A stretch of DNA of 35,804 nt. Origin: Planctomycetota bacterium (lineage in GTDB: Bacteria; Planctomycetota; PLA2; JAEUHO01). The translations under genes were made by a program, and so were the position numbers. Positions 26,878 through 34,412 of the stretch are shown one piece after another; the first letter of the stretch is position 1, and each line of letters begins with the position of its first letter. The notes under the pieces are model-generated. The model did no database searches and was not told the origin of the DNA. It saw only the letters and a program-made list of their open reading frames with translations. The stretch spans positions 1 to 35,804 of the forward strand of contig JASJDY010000039.1 in NCBI GenBank assembly GCA_030065025.1, in the 5' to 3' direction.

Positions 26878-28564
<1,687 letters not shown>

Positions 28565-28590
28565 CCTCCCCCACCCACTGTGATCTCGAC

Positions 28591-28615
28591 TCGCGGGGCC
28601 CTCGGGGCCCCGCGA
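28591..28615 (+). terminator. 11-bp GC hairpin between gdhA and gcvP
   Basis: TCGCGGGGCCC (28591-28601) pairs perfectly with GGGCCCCGCGA (28605-28615) over the loop TCG. No T-run follows, so it is either a terminator without one or an mRNA-stabilising hairpin. Confidence 0.6.
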
Positions 28616-28651
28616 TCATGTCCCAACTTCCTGCGTTCCTCCGGAGACGTC

Positions 28652-31561
<2,910 letters not shown>

Positions 31562-31572
31562 GCGTCTTCGGC

Positions 31573-31605
31573 CACCTGCACTTGCACGTGCACCTGCACT
31601 TCCAC
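31573..31605 (-). repeat. GT-hexamer array, site 4 (inverted orientation)
   Basis: Plus-strand units CACCTG, CACTTG, CACGTG, CACCTG, CACTTC, CAC are in register. On the minus strand they read GTGGAA, GTGCAG, GTGCAC, GTGCAA, GTGCAG, the same GTGCNN frame as sites 1 and 2 but inverted. Confidence 0.6.
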
Positions 31606-31662
31606 CCCGAGGGTGGGCTGCGTCCGCTTCGAACACTCGCGACTGCGGCCGCCGGGGGTCGA

Positions 31663-31760
31663 CGTACCGGAACCAGGAACGAGTGCGCCGTAATTGCGGC
31701 TCACCGGTTCCGGGAACGACCGGGTCGGCAGACCGGCGCATGTGTTCCTGGTTCGGTACG
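31663..31760. repeat. 98-bp foldback element between gcvP and the CydA-like gene
   Basis: CGTACCGGAACCAGGAAC (31663-31680) pairs with GTTCCTGGTTCGGTACG (31744-31760): 17 base pairs with one bulged G. After a 3-by-3 internal loop a second stem follows, TGCGCCG (31684-31690) with CGGCGCA (31734-31740). The core holds smaller palindromes such as CCGGT...ACCGG (31704-31723). No reading frame stands out. It could be a structured RNA, a REP/BIME-type repeat or a recombination site. Confidence 0.55.
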
Positions 31761-31785
31761 AGAGGAACGACGCCCCCCGCTCTGC

Positions 31786-31814
31786 TTGCACGGACGCCTC
31801 CTGTGTCGAAGAAT
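31786..31814 (+). promoter_or_regulatory. Possible promoter of the CydA-like operon
   Basis: TTGCAC (31786-31791) and AAGAAT (31809-31814) are spaced by 17 bases, 38 bases before the start codon. The matches to consensus are only partial. Confidence 0.3.
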
Positions 31815-31851
31815 GCGGGGGCCCTGCATCCGGGACGGCTGGAGGTAGAGG

Positions 31852-33384
31852 ATGCCCTATCCCTTCTGGGAGACGGACCTGGGCTACGGCCCGTTGATGG
31901 CGGCCATCGCCGTGCTGCACGTGTTCGTGTCGCACTTCGCAATCGGAGGCGGCCTCTATCTCGTTGTCGCTGAGCGTGGTGCCCGGCGCCGAGCTGATCT
32001 GCCACGACTCGCGTTCCTCGAGCGCCTCAGCCGCTTCTTCGCGCTGCTCACCCTCGTCCTGGGCGCGCTCACCGGGGTGGCCATCTGGTTCGTGATCGGC
32101 CTGCTCAGTCCGGACGGCACCGAGGCGCTCATCCGCACCTTCGTCTGGGGGTGGGCGATCGAGTGGACGTTCTTCGTCGTCGAGGTGCTGGCAGCGCTTC
32201 TCTACTACTACGGCTGGCGCCGGCTCTCACCCGGCCGCCACATGGCGATCGGCTGGGTCTACTTCGCCGCAGCTTGGCTGTCCCTCGTGGTCATCAACGG
32301 CATCGTCACCTTCATGCTGACGCCGGGCGCCTGGCTGGAGACCGGGGCCTTCTGGGACGGCTTCTTCAACCCCACGTACTGGCCCTCGCTCGTGCTGCGC
32401 ACGGGCATCTGCATCCTTCTCGGCGGCACGTTCGCCGTCTACGTCGCAGGCGGCATCCCCGAGCGCGACACGCGCTTGTCGACCGTCCGGGGGGCCGGGC
32501 TCTGGGGGCTCACGGGTCTGCTCGTGTCCGTCGTCGGATTCTGGATGTACCTGCGGGTCGACGTCCTCTCGCAGGAGAGCTTCCGTGAGGTCGCCGACCG
32601 GCTCGTCCTCCCGGGCCTGGCCACCGAGTACATGCTGGTCGCGACTGCCCTGCTCGGCGCCGGCCTGCTGATCACCGCCGTCCTGCTGCCCCGTATCCAG
32701 CGCCGCCCCGTGGGGCTCCTGCTGCTGCTCTTCGCGCTGATGGGCATGGGCAGCTTCGAGACCTACCGCGAAGCCGTCCGCAAGCCGTACGTGATCCACG
32801 GCTACATGTACGGCAACGGGCAGCGGAAGGACCGCGTCGAGGCCGGAGGCGAAGAGAGCCTGCTCGAGCGCATCGCGTACCGCACGGGCGACGACGGCCG
32901 CGACCTCTTCAACTACAGCTGTCGCTCGTGTCACCAGCTCGAGGGCTATCGCGCCATCAAGCCCTTCTTCGACGGCACGGACGCGGCGTACATCTCCGGA
33001 GCGCTGGCCGGCGTGCACGTGATGCGAGCGCCCATGCCGCCGTTCGCCGGCAACGCCGAGGAGCGTGCGGTGCTCGGCGCGTGGATCGCAGAGCGCGTCG
33101 ACACCCGCCCGCTCCACGAGATCCACCCCGGGGTCGAGGGCATCGAGCTCGGACGACTCGTCTATAGCGCGCGCTGCGCCAGCTGCCACGCGATCGGCGG
33201 CTACGGGGACGTGCGCGAGACGTTCGAGGACTTCGAGGCCGAGGACATCGCCGAGGTCCTGGCGGACAACGAGATGTCGGAGGAGATGCCGCGCTTCAGC
33301 GGGGACGAGACCGAGCGGGACGCGCTCATCGAGTACATCCTGAGCTGGTACGAGGAAGACGCGCCGGAGGAGGCACCGCGATGA
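31852..33384 (+). CDS. CydA-like quinol oxidase/dehydrogenase subunit fused to dihaem cytochrome c
   Basis: 510 residues. The N-terminal part (1-300) has about eight membrane helices and recalls cytochrome bd subunit I: AVLHVFVSHFAIGGGLY in helix 1 (H23, H28), EWTFFVVE followed by YYYGWRRLSPGRHM (E104, E111), and a TFMLTPGAWLE segment. The soluble tail carries two haem c sites, CRSCH (357-361) and CASCH (442-446), in two cytochrome c modules. Electrons could pass from quinol through haem b to haem c, or the protein could reduce oxygen. bd-superfamily members with cytochrome c tails have been described, but I cannot place this one. GGAGG upstream fixes ATG 31852. It overlaps the next gene by ATGA. 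Confidence 0.72.
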   Translation: MPYPFWETDLGYGPLMAAIAVLHVFVSHFAIGGGLYLVVAERGARRRADLPRLAFLERLSRFFALLTLVLGALTGVAIWFVIGLLSPDGTEALIRTFVWGWAIEWTFFVVEVLAALLYYYGWRRLSPGRHMAIGWVYFAAAWLSLVVINGIVTFMLTPGAWLETGAFWDGFFNPTYWPSLVLRTGICILLGGTFAVYVAGGIPERDTRLSTVRGAGLWGLTGLLVSVVGFWMYLRVDVLSQESFREVADRLVLPGLATEYMLVATALLGAGLLITAVLLPRIQRRPVGLLLLLFALMGMGSFETYREAVRKPYVIHGYMYGNGQRKDRVEAGGEESLLERIAYRTGDDGRDLFNYSCRSCHQLEGYRAIKPFFDGTDAAYISGALAGVHVMRAPMPPFAGNAEERAVLGAWIAERVDTRPLHEIHPGVEGIELGRLVYSARCASCHAIGGYGDVRETFEDFEAEDIAEVLADNEMSEEMPRFSGDETERDALIEYILSWYEEDAPEEAPR

Positions 33385-34412
33385 TCGTCCTCGCCCTGCC
33401 GGATTACGATGCGCTCCCCGCCCCGCTCTGGCTCCTGACCGTCCTGCACGTCCTCACCCTCTCGCTCCACTTCGCAGCGATGGGCTGCCTCTTCGGCGGC
33501 CTCCTGACGCTCTTCGGCGCACGCCTGCCCGGCGGCCTCGAGCACCCTTGCGCGAAGCGGCTCGTCACCTTGTTCCCGAGTCTGATGGCCGCCACCGTGA
33601 CGCTCGGCGTCGCGCCTCTGCTCTTCGCCCAGCTCGTCTACGGACGCGTCCTGTACTCGGCCGCGATCGTGAGCGGGTGGTTCTGGCTCGGCATCCCGAT
33701 CATGGCCATGCTCGCGTACGCGTGTCTCTACGCGGCCGCGTTCACGAAGCAAGGCGTGGGTCGCGTGCGCCTCTGGCTGCTGCTCGCGTTGGCGGGACTC
33801 GTCTACGTGTCGCTGACCTACAGCTCCGTCTTCAGCCTGGCCGAACGCCCGGACGCCCAGAAGACGTACTACGAGGGCGACGCCAGCGGTCTCGTCTGGC
33901 ATCCCGACGTGACGGCCTGGATCATGCGCTGGCTGCACATGCTGGGCGGCACGCTCACGATCGGCGGCTTCTTCTTCGGTGTGCTCGGGCGCCGGGACGA
34001 AGCAGCGAGGCACAAAGGGCAGTTCTTCTTCCTCGTGGGCACAGGTGCAGCCTTCCTCACGGGCATGGTCTACCTGTTCACCCTCGGCGATCTGCTCAAG
34101 CCCTTCATGAAGAGTGCGGGCATCTACAGCCTCACCTTCGGCATCGTCGCGGCCCTGATCGCCGTGCCGCTCTACCTCAAGCAGAGGCTCTGGCTCTCCG
34201 GCCTGTCGCTGGGCCTCGGCTTGCTGGGCATGGTGCATGCCCGGCACGTCGTGCGGGACTTGCGACTCGAGGGCCACCTGGACCCCGCAGCGATGACGGT
34301 GGATCCGCAGTGGGGCCTGTTCGCCCTCTTCGCCGTGTGCCTCCTCGTGGCGCTCGCGGCGGTGGCTTGGATGCTGCGCCTGTTCTTCCGCGCCGACGCG
34401 GCAGGCGCCTGA
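33381..34412 (+). CDS. Second membrane subunit of the CydA-like complex
   Basis: 343 residues, about nine membrane helices, no cytochrome c motif. Helix 1 has two histidines in the same spacing class as its partner (H23 and H30 in VLHVLTLSLHFAAMG) and H186 lies in RWLHMLGGTL, possible haem b ligands. The layout (LHVLTLSLHF, then SGWFWLGIPIMAMLAYACLY) looks like a divergent CydA-type rather than CydB-type chain. Its ATG overlaps the TGA of the fused cytochrome gene (ATGA, 33381-33384), so the two chains are made together and probably form one complex. Its own TGA is in the tetraloop of a 6-bp hairpin. Confidence 0.65.
   Translation: MIVLALPDYDALPAPLWLLTVLHVLTLSLHFAAMGCLFGGLLTLFGARLPGGLEHPCAKRLVTLFPSLMAATVTLGVAPLLFAQLVYGRVLYSAAIVSGWFWLGIPIMAMLAYACLYAAAFTKQGVGRVRLWLLLALAGLVYVSLTYSSVFSLAERPDAQKTYYEGDASGLVWHPDVTAWIMRWLHMLGGTLTIGGFFFGVLGRRDEAARHKGQFFFLVGTGAAFLTGMVYLFTLGDLLKPFMKSAGIYSLTFGIVAALIAVPLYLKQRLWLSGLSLGLGLLGMVHARHVVRDLRLEGHLDPAAMTVDPQWGLFALFAVCLLVALAAVAWMLRLFFRADAAGA

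Follow-up and report, generated by a model that had tools for sequence, protein, structure and literature searches.

Association with cytochrome c is taken as the defining trait of OR-C, one family of the cytochrome bd superfamily. In the classification of Murali, Gennis and Hemp (2021), cited in PMC13189123, PMC11707229 and PMC8509429, the superfamily comprises OR-C, OR-N and qOR, of which qOR has a quinol site. For OR-C and OR-N, cytochrome c and possibly another donor are named as the electron source (PMC13189123, PMC11707229). Up to 2021 quinol was the donor of every characterised bd oxidase, and an enzyme with another donor was yet to be obtained (PMC8509429). A search of the literature collection used here returned nothing on OR-C beyond its name, biochemical characterisation included. 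The bd-like oxidases of Nitrospina, Nitrospira and anammox bacteria are long proteins encoded beside mono- and dihaem cytochromes (PMC3578206). In E. coli bd, haem d has H19 and E99 beside it, and haem b595 is ligated by E445 (PMC6853902, PMC8585947). A Lys/Glu pair is part of the quinol site (PMC9846854); its E. coli numbering, K252 and E257, is from the present analysis.

The gene pair and its conservation

The DNA analysed, referred to here as the window, is a stretch of 35,804 nucleotides from a Planctomycetota bacterium. Two genes on its forward strand are the subject of this work. The first (31852..33384) encodes chain A, a protein of 510 aa with a CydA-type membrane core and two haem c domains, identified from the open reading frame, Pfam matches, an AlphaFold model and PDB fold matches. 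A ribosome-binding site, GGAGGT, was read directly at 31841..31846 on the same strand, 5 bases before the ATG. The second gene (33381..34412) encodes chain B, a divergent CydA-like membrane protein of 343 aa without haem c, identified from the open reading frame, hhalign to chain A and CydA, an AlphaFold model and conservation. The two genes overlap by an ATGA at 33381-33384. The genes gdhA-gcvP lie upstream, the whole region from gdhA-gcvP through the pair being window 27215-34412, and the pair stands alone at this locus, with no Rieske or cytochrome b neighbour. An open reading frame at window 34549-35619 matches glycosyl hydrolase family 53 below the threshold (E=0.003), and no homologue of it was found in the regions taken from relatives.

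The nearest relative of the pair is in a Planctomycetota MAG (L002) and shares 78% identity in chain A and 77% in chain B. Compared with this relative, dN and dS are 0.16 and 0.69 for chain A and 0.17 and 0.89 for chain B; since dN is well below dS, both genes are under purifying selection. One scan returned 243 relatives of chain A, 80 of which were kept, and the MAG names among the relatives include Acidobacteria, Holophagaceae, Latescibacterota, Krumholzibacteriia, Ignavibacteriae, Bacteroidota, Verrucomicrobia, Myxococcales and others. The original prediction took the ATGA overlap as an argument for a fixed complex, and fixed pairing of the genes is supported by the relatives. Both genes are complete in 70 loci, and in every one of them B comes directly after A, with the identical 4-base overlap in 24; the other loci stop at a contig edge. 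By dN/dS and constant adjacency, the A-B pair is far from a chance arrangement.

Among 392 genomes from the phylum of the window, A is present in 36 and B adjoins A in 34 of them. The exceptions are a genome in which the B-model match falls inside A (G200) and one with no B match (G177). The distribution is patchy, with A missing from four of the five other genomes of the same genus. The gdhA-gcvP adjacency is kept in several genomes of the same family (G234, G100, G116, G223), and A was not found beside gdhA-gcvP in the same-family genomes compared. The pair looks to have been gained or lost as one unit.

Variations in gene content have also been observed. One of the same-family genomes, G234, has a lone B-like gene at another site (L161 5170-6267). 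In three loci two A genes, each with a single haem, stand one behind the other ahead of one B (L042 5378-7978, L044 5014-7609 and L068 6001-8594). They belong to Bacteroidota/Ignavibacteriae and one unclassified MAG, and their products possibly form a three-chain complex.

Chain A

Residues 16-198 of chain A match PF01654 (Cyt_bd_oxida_I) with E=1e-10, and the predicted helices extend to residue 310. PF13442 is matched twice, the second time at residues 433-496, and CxxCH motifs are located at residues 357-361 and 442-446. Chain A is thus a CydA-like core joined to two haem c modules, as originally proposed. The first motif, CRSCH (C357-H361; 32920..32934, + strand), lies in a PF13442 domain and is invariant as CxxCH. 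Its likely axial Met is M395, which is present in 60 of 61 alignment rows. The second motif, CASCH (C442-H446; 33175..33189, + strand), also in PF13442, is found in most but not all relatives, two haem c motifs being present in 65 of 84 sequences. The AlphaFold model of chain A has a pLDDT of 91.6, and all ten of its best PDB fold matches are CydA-type chains.

The haem ligands were compared by hhalign of the chain A profile with a profile of 31 CydA sequences, which aligned A 16-231 with E=5.6e-14 and a probability of 98. A MAFFT alignment of chain A with canonical CydA, OR-N-like and chain B sequences agrees with it. In these alignments H23 (31918..31920, +) corresponds to the haem d ligand H19 of E. 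coli CydA, E104 (32161..32163, +) to E99, and E111 (32182..32184, +), seven residues past E104, to E107. E307 (32770..32772, +) corresponds to the haem b595 ligand E445, and R310 to R448. All five residues are invariant in 61 diverse relatives, and E307 lies in a larger invariant set of E303, R306, E307, R310 and P312. The equivalence of E307 and R310 depends on a second hhalign segment, A 258-319, that is weak (probability 5.6); both the MAFFT alignment and the invariance of these residues speak for it as well. This is the comparison of haem-ligand positions with bd oxidase that the original prediction proposed, and by alignment chain A keeps the complete residue set of the high-spin di-haem site at which bd reduces oxygen.

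The spacing between E104 and E111 is 7, versus 8 in E. coli, where a Leu101 insertion in CydA has been described (PMC6853902). A spacing of 7 is consistent with the insertion being missing, and a Geobacillus-like arrangement, with E104 near its haem, would be expected for chain A.

The quinol site has a different fate. K252, E257 and the Q-loop are absent from the sampled A sequences in both the profile and the MAFFT alignments. The haem b558 ligands H186 and M393 are not conserved in the alignment either; chain A has L182 at the position of H186 and no conserved Met at that of M393. A reading of the pair as a quinol oxidase was dropped for these reasons. Trp441 of E. coli bd has been discussed as part of electron transfer, and its position is occupied by a Glu (E303) in every A protein. 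The genome of the window has a single PF01654 gene, and no match to CydB (PF02322) was found in this genome, which is 89% complete, or in chain B.

Chain B

Single-sequence searches of Pfam, NCBIfam and PDB gave no match for chain B. Profile comparison with hhalign linked it to chain A (E=1.5e-6, probability 90) and to CydA (E=3.5e-5, probability 72), and gave no sequence link to CydB (probability 0.7). The AlphaFold model has a pLDDT of 94.9. Its fold matches CydB chains with TM 0.52-0.72, and CydA chains also match, with CydB slightly better. An identification of chain B as CydB is therefore rejected on sequence, although the fold is still compatible with it. The original statement that neither chain resembles CydB stands for the sequences and fails for the fold, which CydA and CydB share. 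From the sequence link to CydA, together with a fold that matches both CydB and CydA, chain B probably descends from a CydA-like protein and occupies the place of CydB.

Chain B had been described as a divergent CydA-type chain with histidines in helix 1. The relationship to CydA agrees with the hhalign result, but only one of these histidines, H30, is invariant and H23 is not. H30 (33468..33470, +) aligns with CydA H19. A second invariant histidine, H186 (33936..33938, +), aligns with CydA H186, the haem b558 ligand in E. coli. R183 and R288 are also invariant and R292 is present in 63 of 64 sequences. Both Glu residues of helix 3 are lost, and most sequences have Asp or His where CydA has E445. 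Since two invariant His residues occupy haem-ligand positions, haem binding by chain B is likely, and the haem would probably be a haem b bound via H30 and/or H186.

B-like proteins with their own haem c motifs are found elsewhere (L163, L164, L171, L177 and L180). In L163 (G107:C1, 4084-5532) and L164 (3917-5317) the haem c is C-terminal. The B-like gene of L163 sits between caa3-type oxidase genes and genes for a pentahaem cytochrome and a molybdopterin/FeS protein, surroundings in the style of alternative complex III, with no A present. The B family thus also exists outside the A-B pair.

Gene neighbourhoods and electron supply

No general third partner was found next to A-B when the neighbours were compared in 80 loci. 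A cytochrome b gene accompanies the pair in three of about 100 loci examined, which are from three different genomes, and a Rieske gene is also present in two of them. L121 has B - Rieske - cytochrome b - A. L017 has multihaem cytochromes - Rieske - cytochrome b - A - B - tetrahaem cytochrome, and here the cytochrome b gene overlaps A. In L176 A-B is immediately preceded by the end of a cytochrome b gene. Such an arrangement is expected of an oxidase that is fed by a bc-type complex, and it suggests that A-B receives electrons from a Rieske/cytochrome b complex.

Other neighbours vary. An NrfA-type cytochrome c552 gene adjoins the pair in L004, tetrahaem C554-type genes lie beside it in L008 and L017, and cbb3-type oxidase genes are found upstream of the doubled A in L042. 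In seven loci a gene judged by eye to be ferritin-like or rubrerythrin-like lies downstream of A-B on the opposite strand, about 2.8 kb from the start of A (L039 3732-5054 and six others).

The genome of the window itself encodes a bc-type cytochrome b (L157/L181), NrfD-type proteins and haem-copper oxidases, which makes a cytochrome c pool plausible. A COX1 gene and an NrfD-type gene share one contig, which may represent an alternative complex III-like cluster.

Proposed function and alternatives

The A-B pair is probably a membrane-bound O2 reductase of the bd superfamily that is fed by cytochrome c and not by quinol. This reading draws on the oxygen-site residues that are kept, the quinol and b558 sites that are lost, the haem c that is gained, and the Rieske/cytochrome b neighbours. 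Electrons would pass from reduced cytochrome c or from a Rieske/cytochrome b complex to the haem c domains of chain A, which on the periplasmic side would serve as the entry point in place of haem b558 and the Q-loop. From there they would reach the high-spin pair in chain A, either directly or through haem b in chain B, and O2 would be reduced at the two high-spin haems. Chain B would take the position of CydB as a partner that A cannot do without, and it probably carries a haem b. We infer that O2 is the substrate, that electrons flow in this direction, that chain B contains haem and that A and B form a physical complex. Several points weigh against this reading. The Rieske/cytochrome b link is confined to three loci that do not include the window locus, the NrfA-type and multihaem neighbours (L004, L008) would fit NO or nitrite chemistry as well, the Trp441 position is Glu in all A proteins, and E445 and R448 are matched through the weak hhalign segment. 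A further step, in which A-B would be a physical partner of the Rieske/cytochrome b complex in a bc-bd supercomplex and the low-spin haem would have moved from A to the CydA-derived B, is put forward only tentatively.

The neighbours that suit nitrogen chemistry lead to the alternative that survives best, a detoxification enzyme and not a respiratory O2 reductase. Cytochrome c would then supply the electrons with which the same active site reduces NO, nitrite-derived species or peroxide. Besides the NrfA-type and C554-type genes beside the pair, the quinol peroxidase activity of canonical bd (PMC4899803) speaks for it. We consider it unlikely, however, since the active-site residues are the set of bd O2 reductases and neighbours of this kind are missing at most loci.

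Two functions had been offered originally, an oxygen reductase that takes electrons from haem c and a quinol:cytochrome c electron-transfer complex. The first agrees with the kept oxygen site. The second, in which the pair would act as a quinol:cytochrome c oxidoreductase (or in reverse) in the manner of alternative complex III without reducing O2, has haem c domains fused to a membrane core in its favour. A comparable role has been proposed for the Nitrospina bd-like proteins (PMC3578206), and a quinone site that has escaped recognition in chain B is conceivable. But chain A, with its O2 site intact, has lost the known quinol residues and the Q-loop, and the Rieske/cytochrome b complex beside some relatives would already fill this role, so that this function is very improbable. 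Equally improbable is a canonical bd oxidase to which a cytochrome c tail has been added, with chain B as a normal CydB that has diverged strongly. The slightly better fold match of chain B to CydB favours this reading. Against it stand the lack of a sequence link between chain B and CydB, its clear link to A and weaker link to CydA, the invariance of H30 and H186, which align with haem ligands of CydA, and the missing quinol site in chain A.

Comparison with known systems

The clean split of ligands, with the oxygen site in A and the b558-type His only in B, suggests how quinol and cytochrome c oxidases could turn into each other during evolution. The A-B pair and its relatives in operons with Rieske/cytochrome b offer a small, defined system for the question of a non-quinol bd oxidase, and the supercomplex, if true, would be the first such oxidase with a demonstrated function. 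The novelty implied by the original prediction holds in part. A family without the quinol site, OR-C, has already been published and named, and biochemical characterisation of it was not found; what may be new here is that the partner chain B and the logic of the operon are made visible.

The pair shares with canonical CydAB a two-subunit arrangement of the same fold, and the core helices of chain A carry equivalents of H19, E99, E107, E445, R448 and P450. In contrast to CydAB, chain A has no Q-loop, K252/E257 or b558 ligands, has Glu in place of W441 and has haem c fused to it, and its partner is not CydB by sequence. Archaeal CydAA' also consists of two CydA-related chains with no CydB, a likeness to A-B that is by description. 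It differs, again by description, in that the archaeal enzyme is reportedly quinol-active and without haem c.

Like OR-N, the pair has no quinol site and is associated with c-type cytochromes, and OR-N keeps the H19 and H186 positions, as chain B does. The OR-N-like relatives in the phylum are proteins of about 600-1050 aa with E99 replaced by Tyr, E445 by Ser, and separate cytochrome c genes; one of these long proteins lies beside such genes in L119. Another (L124 2623-5775) has 1050 aa and two separate PF01654 matches and lies beside an open reading frame with eight CxxCH motifs. Chain A, unlike OR-N, keeps both Glu residues, has fused haem c and has no long C-terminal membrane extension. 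This list of OR-N traits is taken from our own comparison and PMC3578206.

In a phylogenetic tree, chain A (support 98), canonical CydA/qOR (100) and the OR-N-like proteins (100) form separate clades, with B apart; the OR-N-like clade was named by gene content and the published description (PMC3578206), without reference sequences. The comparison with the bd-superfamily groups that had been suggested thus sets chain A apart from both qOR and OR-N. OR-C and chain A have in common a bd core, the oxygen-site ligands, the lack of a quinol-binding site and a presumed cytochrome c donor. Chain A has the oxygen-site ligands, no quinol site, two fused CxxCH modules and a clade of its own. From this ligand pattern and the separate clade, chain A is most likely OR-C, a placement that the published description of the family and our tree strongly suggest.
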